Assembly: GCA_018266455.1 (NCBI GenBank)
Contig: JAFEAJ010000010.1
Span: 1 to 64,000 of the forward strand
DNA: 64,000 nucleotides
Direction: 5' to 3'
From: Bacteroidota bacterium
Lineage (GTDB): Bacteria > Bacteroidota > Bacteroidia > Chitinophagales > Chitinophagaceae
The position numbers and the translations under genes were made by a program. Positions 37,767 through 47,793 of this stretch are shown piece after piece (the stretch's first letter is position 1; the number at the start of each line of letters is the position of its first letter). Under the pieces are notes generated by a model that searched no databases, was not told the origin of the DNA, and saw only the letters and a program-made list of their open reading frames with translations.

Positions 37767-38816
37767 TCATTTCTGGTTTTCCGGTCTTAGGCTTCTCACC
37801 GTTTTTCCGGCCCGCCACATTTCACTTTCGCGCAATTCTTTTAATTCTGCTTCCAATTTTTCGCGATAATCAGGTTGCGAGTTTGAATCGATTGAGCGCT
37901 GTGATTCTTTGCCTGCAGCTACGCTTTCATATAATTCTGTGAACACAGGAGATGTTGCATCACGGAATTTTTTCCACCAGTCCAATGCCCCGCGCTGTGC
38001 AGTGGTGCTGCAATTAGCATACATCCAGTCCATCCCGTTTTCTGCTACAAGCGGCATTAATGATTGTGTTAATTCTTCAACGGTTTCATTAAACGCTTCG
38101 CTGGGAGAGTGCCCTTTTTTGCGTAGCACTTCATATTGTGCTGCAAAAATTCCCTGTATGGCGCCCATCAGCGTTCCGCGTTCGCCGGTCAAATCGCTGT
38201 AAACTTCTTTTTTAAAATCTGTTTCAAACAAATAGCCGCTGCCTACTGCAATGCCGAGCGCAATCACTCTTTCCTTAGCTTTTCCGGTTGCATCCTGAAA
38301 AATTGCATAAGAACTGTTCAGCCCGCGGCCTTGTAAAAACATTCTTCGCAACGAGGTGCCGCTGCCTTTAGGAGCAACTAAAAAAACATCCACATCTTTT
38401 GGGGGAACAATACCTGTTTGATTGTTGAACGTAATGCCAAAACCATGAGAAAAATATAGTGCTTTTCCAGGTGTTAAATATTTTTTCACGGTAGGCCATA
38501 ATGCAATTTGCGCTGCATCGCTGAGCAGGTAACAAATGATGGTGCCCCGCTGCAATGCTTCTTCAATTTCGAACAAAGTTTTGCCTGGAACAAAACCATC
38601 CCGAACTGCTTTGTCCCATGTCTTCGAATCTTTGCGCTGGCCCACAATCACATTAATGCCGTTGTCTTTCTGGTTGAGTGCCTGCCCAGGCCCTTGTACC
38701 CCATAACCAATAACTGCAACCGTTTCATTTTTTAAGATATCCTGTGCTTTGCTGAGCGGAAATTCTTCGCGTGTTACAACATTTTCTTCCACGCCGCCGA
38801 AATTTAATTTTGCCAT
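37767..38816 (-). CDS. ilvC: Ketol-acid reductoisomerase
   Basis: A 349-residue class I enzyme. The Rossmann motif is VIGYGVQGPGQALN (about residues 34-47) with QRKDS downstream as the NADP-discriminating loop. The metal-binding knot includes TDFKKEVYSDLTGERG and the glutamates of GHSPSEAFNETVEEL. It rearranges and reduces acetolactate or acetohydroxybutyrate in valine, leucine and isoleucine synthesis. It follows ilvN after a 215-bp spacer and is followed by ilvA. Confidence 0.97.
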   Translation of the reverse strand: MAKLNFGGVEENVVTREEFPLSKAQDILKNETVAVIGYGVQGPGQALNQKDNGINVIVGQRKDSKTWDKAVRDGFVPGKTLFEIEEALQRGTIICYLLSDAAQIALWPTVKKYLTPGKALYFSHGFGITFNNQTGIVPPKDVDVFLVAPKGSGTSLRRMFLQGRGLNSSYAIFQDATGKAKERVIALGIAVGSGYLFETDFKKEVYSDLTGERGTLMGAIQGIFAAQYEVLRKKGHSPSEAFNETVEELTQSLMPLVAENGMDWMYANCSTTAQRGALDWWKKFRDATSPVFTELYESVAAGKESQRSIDSNSQPDYREKLEAELKELRESEMWRAGKTVRSLRPENQK

Positions 38817-39031: not shown

Positions 39032-39622
39032 CTACATCGTGAACACTTCATCTTGTTTGTTCAGAAATTCGTTTTCAATTAATTCTTCTCCCGGCTCTGC
39101 GTGCTCAAATTCTTTTAATCGTTCATGAAAATCGTGACTGCCTTTGATGATTGCCACTCTTGCGCTGCGCACGAATTCAATTAACCCGTAAGGCTCCAGC
39201 GCTTTTATTAATCCTTCAATTTCTTCGCGGTGGCCGGTGGTTTCAAACACAATATAATCGGTACGAATGGCTACTGCCCTTGCTCCGTATTCACGAAGCA
39301 AACGTTCTACTTTTACTTTTTCGGCAATTACCTGGGTAGGCACTTTATACAATGCCATTTCCTGCCATATAATTTCTTCGTTGGTGTTGTAATACGCTTT
39401 CAACACTTCCACCTGCTTTTCAATTTGGCGGCAAAGTTTTCTTACTACATCTTCGGTTTCGTTAATAACAATGTTAAACCGGTGCACGCTTTCTACTTCG
39501 GTAGGAGAGGTGTTGAGGCTTTCGATGTTGATTTTTCGCCTCGTAAAAATAATAGCAATGCGGTTTAATAAACCAATTTGATTTTCGGTGTAAACTGTTA
39601 CGGTGAATTCTTGTTTTTGCAT
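39032..39622 (-). CDS. ilvN: Acetolactate synthase small (regulatory) subunit
   Basis: A 196-residue protein with an N-terminal ACT domain (FTVTVYTENQIGLLNRIAIIFTRRKINIESL in pieces) and a C-terminal half (GARAVAIRTDYIVFETTGHREEIEGLI) as in the IlvH/IlvN family. It binds valine and raises the activity of IlvB. Unusually it is not adjacent to ilvB: a small S23-family gene within inverted repeats separates them. Confidence 0.94.
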   Translation of the reverse strand: MQKQEFTVTVYTENQIGLLNRIAIIFTRRKINIESLNTSPTEVESVHRFNIVINETEDVVRKLCRQIEKQVEVLKAYYNTNEEIIWQEMALYKVPTQVIAEKVKVERLLREYGARAVAIRTDYIVFETTGHREEIEGLIKALEPYGLIEFVRSARVAIIKGSHDFHERLKEFEHAEPGEELIENEFLNKQDEVFTM

Positions 39623-39652: not shown

Positions 39653-40036
39653 CTACTTTTTGCAGTTAATAATAATTTTTGCAATGATGTTTGATATTTC
39701 TATGGCTTCCGAAATCAATTTATCAATTTCTTTATTGTCAACTTTTATAGTTTGTTTGATAAGATAAAGCCAGTATTTTGTTTCGTTTGCTGATTTTAAA
39801 GCAATGGTATTAAATTTTATAAAATCATTTTTGGAAGATCCGGCAACTCCTTCAACCAGGTTTGCCCCAATTGACGTTGCGCTTCTTAATAATTGGTCGA
39901 AAATTGAAAAATGTATTTTTTCATATTGTTGTTCGCCAATAAACAATATTACATCTTTAGAAAAAAAGAAAGCACGATGCCTTATATTGTAAATGTTTAA
40001 TGGCTCCTCTACTGCAATTACTTTATCCTCATCCAT
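39653..40036 (-). CDS. Four-helix-bundle protein of the S23 / rRNA intervening-sequence family
   Basis: A 127-residue protein that is almost entirely helical. Its centre, IFDQLLRSATSIGANLVEGVAGSSKNDFIKF in pieces, is the hallmark of the S23 ribosomal (23S rRNA intervening sequence) four-helix family, followed by SANETKYWLYL. These proteins were first seen in extra sequences inside 23S rRNA genes; their molecular role is unclear, though relatives (bAvd) serve diversity-generating retroelements. Here it sits inside the ilv operon between ilvB and ilvN, on the same strand. Its start and stop codons touch inverted repeat arms. No reverse transcriptase or variable repeat is present, so I do not call a diversity-generating element. 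Confidence 0.85.
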   Translation of the reverse strand: MDEDKVIAVEEPLNIYNIRHRAFFFSKDVILFIGEQQYEKIHFSIFDQLLRSATSIGANLVEGVAGSSKNDFIKFNTIALKSANETKYWLYLIKQTIKVDNKEIDKLISEAIEISNIIAKIIINCKK

Positions 40037-40066
40037 TTTTTACTTTTTATTTTTTCATTTTTACTT
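40037..40066. repeat. Right arm of the 30-nt inverted repeat framing the S23-family gene
   Basis: It abuts the S23-family start codon (40034-40036) and overlaps the ilvB stop codon (40061-40063), which is read from within the arm (minus strand AAGTAA). Pairs with 39623-39652, 27 of 30 bases. Confidence 0.85.
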
Positions 40067-41803
40067 TAACCTTATTTCAGCAACACTGCAACCTTGCGGC
40101 ACCATCGGGAAAACGTTGTTTTCTTTTCCCACTTTTACTTCTAATAAATAAGAGCCTGTATGATTCAACATTTCCGCTAATGCTGTTTTCAGATTTTTTC
40201 GGTCTGAAACCCTCTGTGATTCTATATTATACGCTTTTGCCAGTGCTACAAAATCTGGGCTGCTGATGTCCACAAACGAGTATCTTTTGTCGTTGAATAA
40301 TTGCTGCCACTGGCGAACCATGCCAAGGAAATTGTTATTAAGAATTAATATTTTAATATCAATTCCGCATTGCATGATAGTGCCTAATTCCTGGAGCGTC
40401 ATTTGAAACCCCCCGTCACCAATCACAGCAACTACTGTTCTGTTTGGTGCGCCAAATTTTGCTCCGATGGCTGCTGGCAGCGCAAACCCCATTGTGCCTA
40501 ACCCGCCACTGGTAATATTGCTTTTTGATTGGGTGAATTGTGCGTAGCGGCATGCTACCATTTGATGTTGGCCAACATCGGTAACAATAATGCTTTCCCC
40601 TTTTGTTAGTTCGTTCAGTAATTTAATTACTTCACCCATAGTGAGTAGGTCGCTGGTTGGGTTCAGCTCATTATTGATACATACTTCAAATTCATCTTTT
40701 TCGAAATTTCTAAAACGCTGCAACCATTGCGGGTATGTTTTTTTCTTAATTAATTCGGTGAGCATAGGCAATGTTTCTTTGCAATCTCCCCAAACCGGCA
40801 CTGTTGATTTTACATTTTTGTCAATCTCTGCCGGGTCAATATCGAGATGGATCACTTTTGCCTGCTTTGCATATTTGTCTAACCTTCCGGTTACGCGATC
40901 GTCAAAGCGCATTCCTACAGCGATCAGCACATCACATTCATTCGTCAGCACATTCGGCCCGTAATTCCCATGCATGCCCAACATGCCCGTTGCCAGTGGA
41001 TGATTGGTCGGGATTGCGCTCATTCCAAGTATTGTCCATGCTGCGGGGATTCCCGACTTCTCTAAAAATTCTTTAAACTCTTTTTCTGCTTTGCCAAGAA
41101 TTACTCCTTGTCCGAAAACCACGAATGGTTTTTCTGCACCATTAATAATGTTCGCGGCTTCCTGGATATATTCTTTGCGAACAATTGGTTTGGGGCGATA
41201 GCTGCGTATATGCGTACAGGTTGTATAACCGTTAAAATCGAATTTTTGGAGCTGCGCATTTTTGGTAATGTCAATCAGCACAGGACCGGGCCTTCCGCTT
41301 TTAGCAATATAGAATGCTTTGGCAAGAACAGAAGGGATTTCAGTTGCATCAGTTACCTGGTAATTCCATTTGGTTACCGGAGTGGTGATGTTGATCACGT
41401 CTGTTTCCTGGAAAGCATCTGTGCCAAGCAGGTGGGCAAACACCTGCCCGGTAATGCATACAAGGGGCGTGCTGTCAATCATTGCATCTGCTAATCCGGT
41501 AACAAGGTTGGTAGCGCCCGGCCCGCTGGTTGCAAATACCACGCCCACATTTCCAGATGACCTGGCAAAGCCTTGTGCTGCGTGAATGGCCCCCTGCTCG
41601 TGGCGAACGAGGATATGGTGCAGTTGATTTTGATAATCGTAGAGTGCATCATAAATAGGCATGATTGCACCACCAGGATACCCGAAAATAGTGGATACAT
41701 GTTCAGCCATCAGGGCTTTTATCACCGCTTCGCTGCCACTGATGTTTTCTGTTTTTTTTACTGAAGCTTTTGCTTTTTCTGCTGATAATTCAAGTGTGCT
41801 CAT
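40061..41803 (-). CDS. ilvB: Acetolactate synthase large (catalytic) subunit
   Basis: A 580-residue ThDP enzyme. The N-terminal glutamate region is IFGYPGGAIMPIYDAL with the HEQGAIHAAQGFAR motif, and the ThDP/Mg motif GDGGFQMTLQELGTI...ILNNN lies near the C-terminus. It condenses pyruvate with pyruvate or 2-oxobutanoate. The last residues (VAEIRLK) are of normal type, but the stop codon comes from the inverted repeat arm of the neighbouring S23 element. It lies 23 bases after an ORF6N pseudogene. Confidence 0.96.
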   Translation of the reverse strand: MSTLELSAEKAKASVKKTENISGSEAVIKALMAEHVSTIFGYPGGAIMPIYDALYDYQNQLHHILVRHEQGAIHAAQGFARSSGNVGVVFATSGPGATNLVTGLADAMIDSTPLVCITGQVFAHLLGTDAFQETDVINITTPVTKWNYQVTDATEIPSVLAKAFYIAKSGRPGPVLIDITKNAQLQKFDFNGYTTCTHIRSYRPKPIVRKEYIQEAANIINGAEKPFVVFGQGVILGKAEKEFKEFLEKSGIPAAWTILGMSAIPTNHPLATGMLGMHGNYGPNVLTNECDVLIAVGMRFDDRVTGRLDKYAKQAKVIHLDIDPAEIDKNVKSTVPVWGDCKETLPMLTELIKKKTYPQWLQRFRNFEKDEFEVCINNELNPTSDLLTMGEVIKLLNELTKGESIIVTDVGQHQMVACRYAQFTQSKSNITSGGLGTMGFALPAAIGAKFGAPNRTVVAVIGDGGFQMTLQELGTIMQCGIDIKILILNNNFLGMVRQWQQLFNDKRYSFVDISSPDFVALAKAYNIESQRVSDRKNLKTALAEMLNHTGSYLLEVKVGKENNVFPMVPQGCSVAEIRLK

Positions 41804-41826: not shown

Positions 41827-42389
41827 TTATTTTACGAAACCAATTCTTTTACTCTCTTCCCATTTTTTTGCGCTGCTTTCTCATCCAATTAATTTTCCAG
41901 TGCATCATATATTTGATCCAGTTGTGCATCGTGTCCGTTTAATTTTTCTTTCAATTCTGTTAATTGTTCTTTTAGATCACTTTGTCGTAACAATATTTTT
42001 TGCACTTCCACAAATGCCCTCATAATAGCGATGTTTCATATTAATGGCTTTGTCGCTATTCAAAATTCCGCTGAGCATGGCCACGCCTTGTTCGGTGAAG
42101 ACGTAAGGCGCTGCTGGTTTGGACGTTTGCCAGTTGATGTCATCACAATTTGTGATGATATCCTGTTGTTGTTTGAACTTGAGGTTACAAATTGTGACCT
42201 CAAGTTGTTCCATTCTTCTGCTGTAAGTTGAAACATGAAACCTTTTGAGAAACGTTTTATATTTCGCTTCACTGCCTGGTTTAATGTTCTTGTTTCTGTT
42301 TCGTATAAGGCAGCTAAATCAAAATCGAGCATTACGAGTTCGCCACGTAATTCATAAATCCTGTTCTGTATGCTATTTATTATTTGCAC
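41827..42389 (-). pseudogene. ORF6N-domain protein, broken by several single-base indels
   Basis: The 5' part (from a GTG at 42389) reads IYELRGELVMLDFDLAALYE... and RFSKGFMFQLTAEEWNNLRSQFV, a clear ORF6N DNA-binding domain. The frame then breaks near 42118, where AAA seems to have lost one A. It resumes as PAAPYVFTEQGVAMLSGIL, breaks again near 42027 (one extra A), continues as IAIMRAFVEVQKILLRQSDLKEQ, and meets a stop at 41889. A further frame change and a short A run (near 41859) would give back the usual tail KWEESKRIGFVK, ending at 41827. Four small lesions, mostly in A or T runs, mean it is dead or that this stretch has read errors. It lies between ilvD (15 bp) and ilvB (23 bp), on the same strand. 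Confidence 0.8.
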
Positions 42390-42404: not shown

Positions 42405-44087
42405 TTAATCCTCATCAGTCACGCAACCTTCCGCAGCATTCTTTACATATTTCGCATATTTATAAAGAATGCCGTTTGTTGCTTTTAATGCCGGTTTTTT
42501 CCATGCTGCTTTCCTTTTTAAAATTTCTTCTTCACTTATTTTCAAAGTGATGGTATTTTTTGTTGCATCAATTTCAATGATGTCATTATCATTTACCATT
42601 CCAATAAGGCCGCCTTCATAAGCTTCGGGAGTAATGTGGCCGACCACAAAGCCATGTGTGCCGCCACTGAACCTTCCATCGGTTATTAATGCAACAGACT
42701 TGCCCAAACCAGCGCCGATAATGGCTCCTGTTGGTTTCAGCATTTCAGGCATGCCTGGTGCGCCTTTTGGGCCGATGTTTTTTATTACCACTACATCGCC
42801 TGGGTGAACTCTTTTGCTTTCAATGCCTTTAATGAAATCATGTTCTCCATCAAATACTCTTGCAGCCCCTTCAAACCGCTCGCCTTCTTTACCTGAAATC
42901 TTTGCAACACTTCCGCCTGTTGCGAGGTTGCCATACAATATTTGCAGGTGTCCTGTTTTCTTGATGGGGTTTTCCAAAGAATGGATCACATCTTGTCTTG
43001 TAAAATCAAGGTCAGGTGCATCTTTCAAATTTTCAGCCATTGTTTTTCCTGTCACTGTAAGGCAATCGCCATGAAGCATGCCGTGGCCCAGCAGGTATTT
43101 CATCACCGCAGGCACCCCTCCATATTGGTGAAGGTCTTGCATCAAATATTTTCCGCTTGGCTTGAAATCTGCCAGCACAGGCGTTTTCCTGCTAATGGCC
43201 TGGAAATCGTCCTGTGTTAATTTCACGCCCACACTTTTTGCTATTGCAATCAGGTGCAGCACTGCATTTGTACTTCCGCCAAGGGCCATTACAATGGTGA
43301 TTGCGTTTTCGAATGCTTTGCGTGTCATGATGTCTTTTGGCTTGATGTCTTTCTCCAATAAGTTTTTTATTGCTTTGCCAATGGCTTCACATTCTTTTTG
43401 TTTCTCTTCGCTGAGAGCAGGGTTTGACGAAGAATAAGGCAGGCTCATGCCCAATGCTTCGATGGCGCTTGCCATCGTGTTAGCCGTGTACATGCCCCCA
43501 CATGCACCTGCGCCCGGGCAGGCATTGCGAACGATTGCTTTGAAATCTCCCTCATCCAAATTGCCTGCAATTTTTTGCCCTAGCGCTTCAAATGTGGAAA
43601 CAATATTCAGGTCTTCCCCTTTATAATGACCGGGGGCAATTGTTCCGCCATATAACATGATCGAAGGGCGGTTCAACCTTCCCATTGCCATTAATGATCC
43701 TGGCATATTTTTGTCGCATCCAGGGATGGTGATCAGCGCGTCATAATATTGAGCGCCTGCATTTGTTTCAATGCTGTCGGCAATCACATCCCTGCTCACC
43801 AGGCTATAGCGCATGCCATCTGTTCCCATGCTGATGCCGTCGCTAACGCCGATTGTATGGAACCTGAGCCCAACAAGGTTTTCGCTGTTCACGCTTTTGC
43901 GCACTTCGGTGGCAAGGTCATTCAAATGCATATTGCAGGGGTTGCCATCCCAGCCCATGCTGGCAATGCCCACCTGCCCTTTTTTAAAATCTTCATCTTT
44001 GAAACCGATGGCATACAGCATTGCCTGAGCCCCGGGCAAGGTTTCATCCTGAGTTAGTGTTTTTGAGTGTTTGTTAAGTTCAGCCAT
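42405..44087 (-). CDS. ilvD: Dihydroxy-acid dehydratase
   Basis: A 560-residue Fe-S enzyme with the family motifs PGCDKNMPG and [25 protein letters not shown] in pieces, and [16 protein letters not shown] near the end. It makes the 2-oxo acids that IlvE transaminates. Normal length and complete. Second gene after ilvE, with a 112-bp gap that holds a small CCCGCACGGG palindrome. Confidence 0.97.
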
Positions 44088-44199: not shown

Positions 44200-45099
44200 C
44201 TATGCCACCTCGGTTTTAAGCTCTTTTTCGATTACCCTTGCTTTATAGGCGTCCTGGATTAGCTTGCTTGCTGTTCCATTCCATTCTTTTTTCATTTTTA
44301 TGCCATCAAGGCTTTCCCATCCGATCACTTCTGCAGCGGTGCCGCAAAAGAATGCCGCATCAGCATGCTGTTTCACTTCGTCAGCAGTGAACAATTTTTC
44401 TTCTGCAGGGATGTCAAGTTCATGGCATATTTCAAGAACGGTTGCCCTCGTGATGCCCGGCAAAATATTTCCTAGTGGCGGGGTAAATAATTTGCCATTT
44501 TTTTCATAGAACATGTTGGCCCCGGGGGCTTCAGCCACAAAACCGTTCATATCTTTCAACAATGCTTCATCAAAACCTTTGGCTTTGGCATCCTGGCTGG
44601 CTACAATGGAATTGACATAATGCCCGGCCGCTTTTGCTTCTATCTTAAAAGCTTTAGGGTTTGGCCTTTCAAATGATGATGTCATTACCTTCAGCAGTTT
44701 TTCCCCCAGGAACTTTCCCATTTCCCAAACCTGGATCGTAATGAAGGATACTTTATTCTGCGTAAAGCTCATATTGGCCGGCGCAAACACTAACGGTCTT
44801 ATATATGCGTTTTGCAGGTTGTTGCGTTTCAGCACTTCGTAAGTAGCCTCAATTAATTCTTCGTTGTTGTACGGATAAGGGATGTTGAGGGCACTGGCAG
44901 ATTTCCTCAGCCTTTCGAAATGTTCTGCTTCTTTGAAGATCTTCGTTTGCCCACTAACGTTGCGGTACGACCGGATTCCTTCAAACACCGCATAGCCATA
45001 ATGCAATGACTGGCTATATAAATCAATTTTCGCTTCTGCTGCTTTTACATATTCTCCGTTAAAATAGAGAATGGTGTTTTCATTATAATAACCGGTCAT
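44200..45099 (-). CDS. ilvE: Branched-chain amino acid aminotransferase
   Basis: A 299-residue fold-type IV PLP enzyme. It shows YFNGEYVKA, HYGYAVFEGIRSY, the PLP-lysine region EAKAAGHYVNSIVA with GFDEALLKDMNGFVAEAPGANMF, and GITRATVLEICHEL. It makes Ile, Val and Leu from the oxo acids using glutamate. First structural gene behind the attenuator: its start lies about 115 bases past the leader terminator. Confidence 0.96.
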   Translation of the reverse strand: MTGYYNENTILYFNGEYVKAAEAKIDLYSQSLHYGYAVFEGIRSYRNVSGQTKIFKEAEHFERLRKSASALNIPYPYNNEELIEATYEVLKRNNLQNAYIRPLVFAPANMSFTQNKVSFITIQVWEMGKFLGEKLLKVMTSSFERPNPKAFKIEAKAAGHYVNSIVASQDAKAKGFDEALLKDMNGFVAEAPGANMFYEKNGKLFTPPLGNILPGITRATVLEICHELDIPAEEKLFTADEVKQHADAAFFCGTAAEVIGWESLDGIKMKKEWNGTASKLIQDAYKARVIEKELKTEVA

Positions 45100-45215: not shown

Positions 45216-45241
45216 AAAAACCCGCCTTTTTGGAGGCGGGT
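45216..45241 (-). terminator. Attenuator terminator of the ilv operon
   Basis: On the minus strand ACCCGCC pairs with GGCGGGT around TCCAAAAA, then a T5 run. Its 5' arm (CCGCCTCC, 45239-45232) can instead pair for eight bases with GGAGGTGG inside the leader ORF (45282-45275). That makes the terminator conditional. Confidence 0.88.
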
Positions 45242-45267
45242 CATATATTCATTTTATTTCTTACAAT

Positions 45268-45366
45268 TTAATAACCACCTCCGCTTGTTGCAGGTATAAT
45301 AATCACCACCACAATAATAATTGCAGCAAGAAGATTAATAACATGATCAAACCTGTTGTTCAACAT
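45268..45366 (-). CDS. ilvL: ilv operon leader peptide (attenuator)
   Basis: A 32-residue open frame with ATG at 45366 and TAA at 45270-45268. Residues 16-24 are IIIVVVIII, nine regulatory codons in a row, followed by PATSGGGY. The Gly codons 29-31 (GGA GGT GGT) form the strand that can pair with the terminator's 5' arm. A ribosome stalled for lack of charged tRNA-Ile or tRNA-Val leaves that strand free, and an antiterminator forms. A ribosome reaching the stop codon covers it, and the terminator forms. Promoter, leader, antiterminator and terminator are all in order upstream of ilvE. The peptide is inferred from codon content; no protein family supports it. Confidence 0.87.
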   Translation of the reverse strand: MLNNRFDHVINLLAAIIIVVVIIIPATSGGGY

Positions 45367-45384
45367 AATGGATGTGTTGTTGCG

Positions 45385-45414
45385 CAAATATACAGCCTGC
45401 CTTTTTATAAACAA
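45385..45414 (-). promoter_or_regulatory. Promoter of the ilv operon
   Basis: On the minus strand TTG at 45414-45412, a 19-base spacer, then TATATTTG at 45392-45385, an exact TAnnTTTG. It lies 18 bases before the leader ATG. This is the best promoter match in the window. Confidence 0.8.
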
Positions 45415-45526
45415 AGAACTATTTGCCTAAACCGAGTTTTTTGAGAGATTAATAGGATGGATATGTTTCGATGGTGGCCATTTATTATCTCATTCACCCC
45501 TTCAATTCTAAGAATCCGGGTTCAGG
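45415..45526. other. Gap between leuB and the ilv promoter
   Basis: No clear terminator follows leuB on the minus strand, so leu transcripts may run into the ilv attenuator. No gene seen. Confidence 0.4.
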
Positions 45527-46642
45527 CTATATAATCGTTGACTTCCTCAGCTCAATATTCTCTTTATTCACTCCAACAGGAATTTTATTTGAAACGAAAT
45601 CGCTGATAAGCTCACCGATTGTTGTTGTGAAATAGAAATTCACTGGGTCAATATCTTTTGTTACGAACCCATTGTCTAAAGTCCAGTTAACGGCTGTTCT
45701 TACCAGTCCGGCTTCTTTGTTTAAGCCGAAATGATCGAGCATCATAGCGGCCGACAATATCGAACCAACCGGGTTAGCGATATCTTTCCCCGCAGCTTGC
45801 GGGTAAGAGCCATGAATGGGCTCAAACAGCGCCGAACCATTCCCAACAGAAGCCGATGGCAATAGGCCTAGCGATCCACTGATTACGCTGGCCTCATCGC
45901 TAATGATATCGCCGAACATATTTTCAGTAAGGATCACGTCAAATTGTTTTGGGTTCAGGATGATTTGCATGGAAGCATTGTCAACAAATAAAAAGTCAAG
46001 TGAAACATCAGCGTATTGAGATGAAGTTTCTTTCACAACTTTTCTCCATAGCCTTGACGTTTCCAATACATTTGCTTTATCAACGAGCGTTAATTTTTTC
46101 CTTCTTTGTTGCGCATTTTTGAAAGCGAGGTGAGCTATCCGCTGAATTTCTTCCCTGGAATAGGTGCAATCATCCATTGCTCGATTGCCGTCTGCGCTGG
46201 TTTCTTTTTTGCCAAAATAAATGCCTCCTGTCAGTTCGCGGTAAATAATAAAGTCAACATTTTCTATATTCTGCGCTTTTAGCGGCGACAGGTGGTGCAG
46301 TGAAGGGTAAGTTGTTACCGGGCGTATGTTTGCGAACAATTGCAGCGATTTCCTGAGTTTCAGCAGGCCCTGCTCAGGCCTTACTTTTGCTGTAGGGTCA
46401 TTGTCATATTTAGGGTGACCGATAGCGCCGAACAAAATGGCATCACTGTTCAATGAAGCCTCAATGGTGTCGTTGGGCAAAGGGCTGCCTGTCTTATCAA
46501 TAGCATCGGCGCCCATTAAGCAATAATGATAATTAAATTCATGTCCAAACTGTTCGGCAATGGCATTCAGCACTTTTACTGATTGTCTTGTCACTTCCGG
46601 GCCAATTCCATCGCCTTCAATAATTACAATGTTCTTGTTCAT
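45527..46642 (-). CDS. leuB: 3-isopropylmalate dehydrogenase
   Basis: A 371-residue enzyme with the family motifs IVIIEGDGIGPEVTRQSV, LLKLRKSLQLFANIRPV (substrate arginines), LTGGIYFG, LTENMFGDIISDEAS and GSYPQAAGKDIANP (NAD region). It oxidises 3-isopropylmalate to 2-oxoisocaproate. Normal length. It starts 16 bases after leuD. Confidence 0.96.
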   Translation of the reverse strand: MNKNIVIIEGDGIGPEVTRQSVKVLNAIAEQFGHEFNYHYCLMGADAIDKTGSPLPNDTIEASLNSDAILFGAIGHPKYDNDPTAKVRPEQGLLKLRKSLQLFANIRPVTTYPSLHHLSPLKAQNIENVDFIIYRELTGGIYFGKKETSADGNRAMDDCTYSREEIQRIAHLAFKNAQQRRKKLTLVDKANVLETSRLWRKVVKETSSQYADVSLDFLFVDNASMQIILNPKQFDVILTENMFGDIISDEASVISGSLGLLPSASVGNGSALFEPIHGSYPQAAGKDIANPVGSILSAAMMLDHFGLNKEAGLVRTAVNWTLDNGFVTKDIDPVNFYFTTTIGELISDFVSNKIPVGVNKENIELRKSTII

Positions 46643-47250: not shown

Positions 47251-47793
47251 TTATCTTTTATAATACATTACCAATGTCGCTTTCTCTATGGTATTTGAAT
47301 AAAGGTTGAACCCGACGTAGGCGGGGGTTGCATTTTTGTCTAAGCCAAGTTTTGCGGTTTTCAAAGCGTAAATTGTGATTTTGTATTCATGAAAACCATG
47401 GCCCTGGGGAGGGCAGGGGCCGCCATAGCCAGGCTGGCCAAAATCAGTCATGCTCTGGATCGTGCCAGGAGGCATTAGCCCTTTTGAGATATTGCCCGCA
47501 CCGGTTTTCAATTCGGTTACATTTGATGGAACATCAAAAACCACCCAGTGCCAAAAGCCACTGCCGGTAGGCGCATCGGGATCGAACATGGTGATGGCGA
47601 AGCTTTTCGTTCCTGCCGGAGCATTTTCCCAGTACAGTTCCGGGGAAAGATTTTCTCCCGTGCACCCAAACCCATTATACACTTGTTTGTCTGTTGCCTG
47701 CCCGCCAATATCTTTGCTTTTCAGCGTGAAGGTTTGAGCGGATAATAAATTTGCCATTGTGCAAAAATTTAAGATCAGAAACAGGTTTTTCAT
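47251..47793 (-). CDS. Exported YbhB/YbcL-type (PEBP) phosphatidylethanolamine-binding-like protein
   Basis: A 180-residue protein with a signal peptide (about residues 1-19, ending LLSAQ) and the PEBP signature [19 protein letters not shown], followed by [18 protein letters not shown]. The family binds small anionic or phospholipid ligands; the bacterial members have no settled function. It lies between leuC (21 bp) and leuD (1 bp) and is surely co-transcribed. No known step of leucine synthesis needs it, and being exported it cannot meet the cytoplasmic enzymes. Its place may be a passenger insertion. Confidence 0.9.

Follow-up and report, generated by a model that had tools for sequence, protein, structure and literature searches.

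In the trpL, hisL, leuL, pheL and thrL leaders of Escherichia coli, which Rfam covers with Trp_leader, Thr_leader, Phe_leader and other families, the position of the ribosome selects an antiterminator or a terminator, and the leader of the ilvXGMEDA operon (ilvL) combines a peptide rich in an Ile/Val run with an intrinsic terminator ahead of an ilv operon. It has been suggested that amino-acid attenuators probably arose in Gammaproteobacteria and were transferred very rarely, and isoleucine/valine attenuators were stated to be absent from Rfam in 2013 (Sun 2013, PMC3766115). Candidate attenuators with a leader ORF and antiterminator and terminator hairpins have been described for actinobacterial trp and leuS (Seliverstov 2005, PMC1262725). 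Among the Bacteroidota, short ORFs reminiscent of leader peptides have been reported in Bacteroides thetaiotaomicron (PMC7366714), and a cis-regulatory RNA predicted in Bacteroidetes, the Bacteroid-trp RNA (RF01692), takes its name from trp (Weinberg 2010, PMC2864571). For Flavobacterium psychrophilum, one main-text sentence mentions short peptides upstream of amino-acid biosynthesis operons as clues to attenuation; the species belongs to the same phylum as the locus studied here, and that main text gives no ilv case, mechanism or alignment (Guerin 2021, PMC9723704).

The window analyzed here, a stretch of 64,000 nucleotides, carries on its minus strand, between leuB (45527-46642) and ilvE (44200-45099), a promoter, a leader ORF, a decoy strand and a terminator. 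Judged from sequence and comparison, we consider that these elements very probably (roughly 0.93) constitute a ribosome-mediated transcription attenuator of ilvEDBNC that responds to the supply of charged tRNA-Ile and tRNA-Val. The promoter is of the Bacteroidota type by sequence (45385-45415, with TTTG at 45415-45412, a 19-nt spacer and TATATTTG at 45392-45385), and transcription is predicted to start at about 45378. Of 86 loci, 32 have a motif of this type 14-23 nt 5' of the leader start, where 0.15 would be expected. The leader ORF (45268-45366; ATG at 45366, stop codon TAA at 45270-45268) encodes the 32-residue peptide MLNNRFDHVINLLAAIIIVVVIIIPATSGGGY, and has homologues in the genus and in most of the family; the ORF listing gives this frame from an upstream TTG instead of the ATG. 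The regulatory codons ATT ATT ATT GTG GTG GTG ATT ATT ATA (Ile3 Val3 Ile3) occupy 45295-45321, and the run is kept in relatives.

The decoy, or 5' strand of the putative antiterminator (GGAGGTGGTTAT, 45271-45282), overlaps the last Gly/Tyr codons of the ORF and was recognized from folding, spacing, the swap test described below and a GGAGG that is near-invariant in the family. Between the ORF and the first gene lies an intrinsic terminator hairpin (GACCCGCCT-CCAAAA-AGGCGGGTT, then a T run; 45219-45242), which was listed first among 21 terminator-like sites in 14 kb by terminator search. Its 5' arm and loop (CCGCCTCC, 45232-45239) can serve as the alternative partner of the decoy, as GGAGGTGG (45282-45275) pairs with CCGCCTCC at 8/8 positions, one of them G-U, and in folding the duplex can be extended to about 12 bp over GGAGGTGGTTAT. 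The promoter, the 32-codon leader, the eight-base pairing and the T-run terminator of the initial annotation were thus all recovered at these minus-strand positions. By sequence and folding, the decoy and the 3' arm of the hairpin compete for the terminator 5' arm, and the two states are mutually exclusive. Compared with shuffled sequences, folding is more stable by 2.4 sd both for the whole leader and for the decoy-arm region. When both strands of the whole window were scanned for leaders with Ile/Val/Leu runs, this leader was returned at -17.5 kcal/mol, and the only other match was weak (TTG start, -7.7 kcal/mol).

The first operon gene, ilvE, encodes a branched-chain aminotransferase (Pfam Aminotran_4), and is followed on the minus strand by ilvD (dihydroxy-acid dehydratase, 42405-44087), ilvB (acetolactate synthase large subunit, 40061-41803, assigned by Pfam TPP enzyme domains), ilvN (acetolactate synthase small subunit, 39032-39622) and ilvC (ketol-acid reductoisomerase, 37767-38816), with ilvD, ilvN and ilvC also assigned by Pfam. 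Small genes are present in two gaps of the operon, one for an ORF6N-domain protein between ilvD and ilvB (42060-42389) and one for a 23S rRNA-intervening-sequence protein between ilvB and ilvN (39653-40036). In the leu cluster, a gene of the phosphatidylethanolamine-binding-protein family (47251-47793) is located between leuC and leuD.

From this arrangement we infer where transcription starts, that the ORF is translated, that ribosomes stall on it, that starvation leads to read-through, and what the default is without translation. With ample Ile and Val, the ribosome would reach the stop codon and cover the decoy, the terminator would form and transcription would end. If Ile or Val were short, the ribosome would stall in the run with its front edge just before the decoy; the freed decoy would then capture the terminator arm, and RNA polymerase would continue into ilvE. 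On a leader without a ribosome, the decoy would likewise be free and read-through would be the default.

The window leader resembles ilvL down to its codons, with the stretch GTG GTG GTG ATT ATT AT(C/A) CC of ilvL also matching it. GTG accounts for 120 of 226 Val codons in leaders upstream of ilvE, against 69 of 209 in the leu/ilv genes of the window. Together with the stretch shared with ilvL (GTG GTG GTG ATT ATT AT. CC; 45295-45321 in the window), this possibly reflects convergence through isoacceptor sensing. Outside the codon stretch, in contrast, the window leader differs from ilvL, and no RNA-family match was detected for it; its decoy is placed right at the 3' end of the leader ORF, no protector was seen, and the run consists of Ile and Val only. 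At gathering thresholds, Rfam gave no match for the window leader or for ten related loci including the trp leader of the same genome. Against RF00513, RF00506, RF01859 and RF01692 the window leader stayed below gathering (best Phe_leader, 24.9 against 55 bits), and permissive thresholds assigned no family to it. The best Rfam match of the genome's own trp leader was a sub-threshold Trp_leader (30.8 against 41 bits).

In a sample of 33 genomes of the genus, the leader was present in every close ilvE locus with a readable start (24 including the window). It reads IIIVVVIIIP..GGG(W/C/Y) or similarly, one case (L022) having diverged, and the terminator that precedes ilvE in the genus loci has CCCGCC in its 5' arm. 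Most family loci with the window-type ilvE also carry the leader, for example Niastella caeni (L033). No leader was found before ilvE in L038, L039, L049 and L056; leuB abuts ilvE in L039, L049 and L056, and in L056 (G037) and L049 (G083) none was found upstream of leuA either, an apparent loss of the attenuator. Metagenome-assembled genomes of Flavobacteriales and Microscillaceae (L034, L037, L036) show the same layout in other letters, as in L034, where TGAGAAAG is accompanied by CTTTCTCA. The class sample comprised 396 genomes, 98 of them with a close ilvD, and 1.5 kb upstream of 100 ilvD loci was scanned. Under a strict cut-off (ATG start, duplex <= -11 kcal/mol, stem of at least 8 pairs), a leader-decoy-terminator unit was held by 31 of the 100 loci, about two thirds having no strict match, and the same scan returned 0 on antisense strands and 0 in each of three dinucleotide-shuffle sets. 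The gene between the leader and ilvD resembled ilvE by its N-terminus in 10/10 loci checked by eye. A loose cut-off gave 46 candidates among the 100 loci, some of them doubtful; L063, L072, L073, L093, L095, L120 and L132 were classed as doubtful or false, and those that passed the filters of the swap test were retained there as noise. The short ORF with an Ile/Val run that was to be sought before ilvE or ilvD in relatives was therefore found in genus, family and class, and by sequence comparison the leader/terminator unit upstream of ilvE is not a product of chance.

Counted from the start of the last Ile/Val codon, pairing of the decoy begins after a median of 15 nt, usually 14-15 nt. In the window the offset, taken in the same way from the last Ile codon, is 15 nt, and 59% of independent arms have a spacing of 12-17 nt against 19% in shuffles. 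The spacing is 13-19 nt in the His and Trp leaders of the genus, and 17 nt by the same measure in E. coli trpL and leuL. A bacterial ribosome extends about 12 nt past the codon being translated (PMC4833913), so the first decoy base lies level with the front edge of the ribosome or slightly past it. Masked folding was performed on transcripts ended in the terminator loop, for 29 representatives and the window. Decoy-arm pairing in the window was 0.97 both in the ribosome-free transcript and when a ribosome occupied the last Ile codon, and 0.00 when the ribosome sat on the stop codon; for these three states the medians of the representatives were 0.76, 0.78 and 0.00, respectively. By spacing and masked folding, a ribosome stalled in the run frees the decoy, and one at the stop codon masks it. 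In the folding of full-length transcripts, the terminator wins at equilibrium in nearly all ribosome states, so the switch must act co-transcriptionally.

Since the decoy pairs with the arm when no ribosome is present, the predicted default is ON, and here the locus departs from the E. coli folding controls (trpL, hisL, leuL, pheL and thrL; ilvL was left out, its hairpin having been missed by the terminator finder). Without a ribosome, decoy-arm pairing was 0.00 in trpL, hisL, leuL and pheL and 0.37 in thrL, against 0.97 in the window. A classical three-segment attenuator, in which an upstream protector pairs with the decoy of the untranslated leader so that the operon is OFF by default, as are trp and his in E. 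coli, is the strongest alternative, and we regard it as unlikely. It would account for the weak pairing of CAC and UCC near the 5' end with the decoy in the minimum-energy structure of the full-length leader, for upstream decoy pairing in a few other families (such as L071, L106, L109, L143 and L140), and for the approximately 50% of upstream pairing by the decoy before the arm is made. This last pairing, however, was no better than in family shuffles, 45% of which were as good, in a low-power test that also missed the thrL and pheL controls. Once the arm is transcribed, the pairing of the decoy with upstream sequence fell to 0.00 in the window and to a median of 0.04, whereas it was 0.73-0.82 in E. 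coli trpL, hisL and leuL. The 1:2 protector or pause hairpin of the enterobacterial three-hairpin layout was not found by in silico folding, and the leader ORF folded no better than shuffles (z -0.25). These results uphold in silico the single switch without a separate pause hairpin described in the initial annotation. The enterobacterial ilv logic that it had also ascribed to the locus stands for starvation and plenty, but the no-translation state predicted by masked folding is reversed. The attenuator of the window thus apparently operates, according to the folding models, without a protector hairpin. The actinobacterial candidates, as described, have an antiterminator and a terminator only, so a two-hairpin layout is not unprecedented, although those attenuators belong to another phylum and have other sequences (Seliverstov 2005, PMC1262725).

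The decoy-arm core sequences vary between families, with each decoy matching its own terminator arm. In a swap test of 33 arms, one representative per terminator-arm type chosen blind to pairing energy, native decoy-arm duplexes averaged -15.5 kcal/mol, against -10.3 (sd 0.52) under random re-assignment of decoys; 0 of 20,000 permutations were as strong as the native set, which was better by about 10 sd. The alternative pairing is thus kept in relatives through co-change across families, and the swap test, masked folding and the decoy-arm fold together sustain the mutual exclusivity claimed from the window alone. Because the core GGAGG/CCGCCTCC is almost invariant within Chitinophagaceae, pair-level covariation of the antiterminator is weak there (1 double change, with 37-47 of 500 shuffles as good), and the evidence for decoy-arm covariation is the between-family comparison. 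The terminator stem covaries strongly, with 22 cells changed on both sides, a level reached by 0 of 500 shuffles, and it is 99.8% paired among 45 sequences.

Comparison of relatives also bears on whether the C-terminal Gly-Gly-Gly peptide itself acts, by nascent-chain arrest or in trans, with the RNA pairing secondary. The retention of GGG in most family leaders fits such a role, but the reading frames of L085 and L089/L035 stop within or directly after the decoy, and the Gly codons are gone while the GAGGTGG/GGAGGAT bases stay; therefore, the RNA strand is conserved and not the Gly-Gly-Gly peptide. One sequence with a compensating G-C to U-A change, and other families that lack a Gly run yet retain a matching decoy, also speak against the peptide, and we judge its action very improbable. 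It is even less credible that GGAGG is not an antiterminator strand but an internal Shine-Dalgarno-like site that promotes reinitiation or pausing. GGAGG is complementary to the anti-SD core CCUCC, but unrelated decoys in other families (GUGAGG, AUCGGGGCG, GAGAAUGG) match their own terminators, and no start codon follows GGAGG at SD spacing in the window. Equally far-fetched is a plain leuB terminator with a coincidental short ORF and independent expression of ilvE, for although the unit adjoins leuB and its CCCGCC...GGCGGG, followed by a T run, makes an ordinary intrinsic terminator, the promoter sits between leuB and the terminator, the Ile/Val run, spacing and decoy complementarity are all conserved, and antisense and shuffled scans gave 0 matches.

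Besides the ilvEDBNC attenuator, the same detector revealed sibling leaders in the genome, each with its own decoy-terminator letters and kept in relatives. A His leader (MKLFLHIHHHHTSLQR, with HHHH) precedes hisG and a Trp leader (MKQNQVNIQWWWHTNLYRGL, with WWW) precedes trpE, both in the two-state design on the minus strand of contig C48 (L227 and L228), and neither reached the gathering threshold of an Rfam family. A Phe/Tyr leader (MITAKAYRYFFFYFYFYFTSRPGLLLLTTK) precedes the prephenate dehydratase gene; this Phe/Tyr-rich leader (YRYFFFYFYFYF; L226, contig C14, 1940-2032 in reverse-complement coordinates) has a decoy-terminator pair, similar leaders occur at five same-genus loci, and it may respond to both amino acids together. 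No leucine leader was found upstream of leuA and no threonine leader upstream of thrA, although the thrA loci taken from relatives may end short of the start of the gene. Taken as a whole, we lean slightly towards the view that the Ile/Val, His, Trp and Phe/Tyr operons of Bacteroidota share a class of two-state attenuators without a protector, widespread in the phylum, which would be ON by default without translation, with a codon-decoy spacing of about 15 nt, pairing letters that vary freely between families, and no Rfam model.

The principle of ribosome-mediated attenuation is known, and the novelty of this case would lie in its protector-less, default-ON variant. Within Bacteroidota, attenuation now appears throughout the class, one genome holding four cases, and these results suggest a simpler two-state form with the opposite behavior when translation fails. 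A start-codon mutant of the E. coli trp or his leader should be OFF, whereas the corresponding mutant of the window system is predicted to be ON. Furthermore, a search by geometry (leader ORF, decoy and terminator) rather than by sequence could annotate regulation in a little-known phylum.
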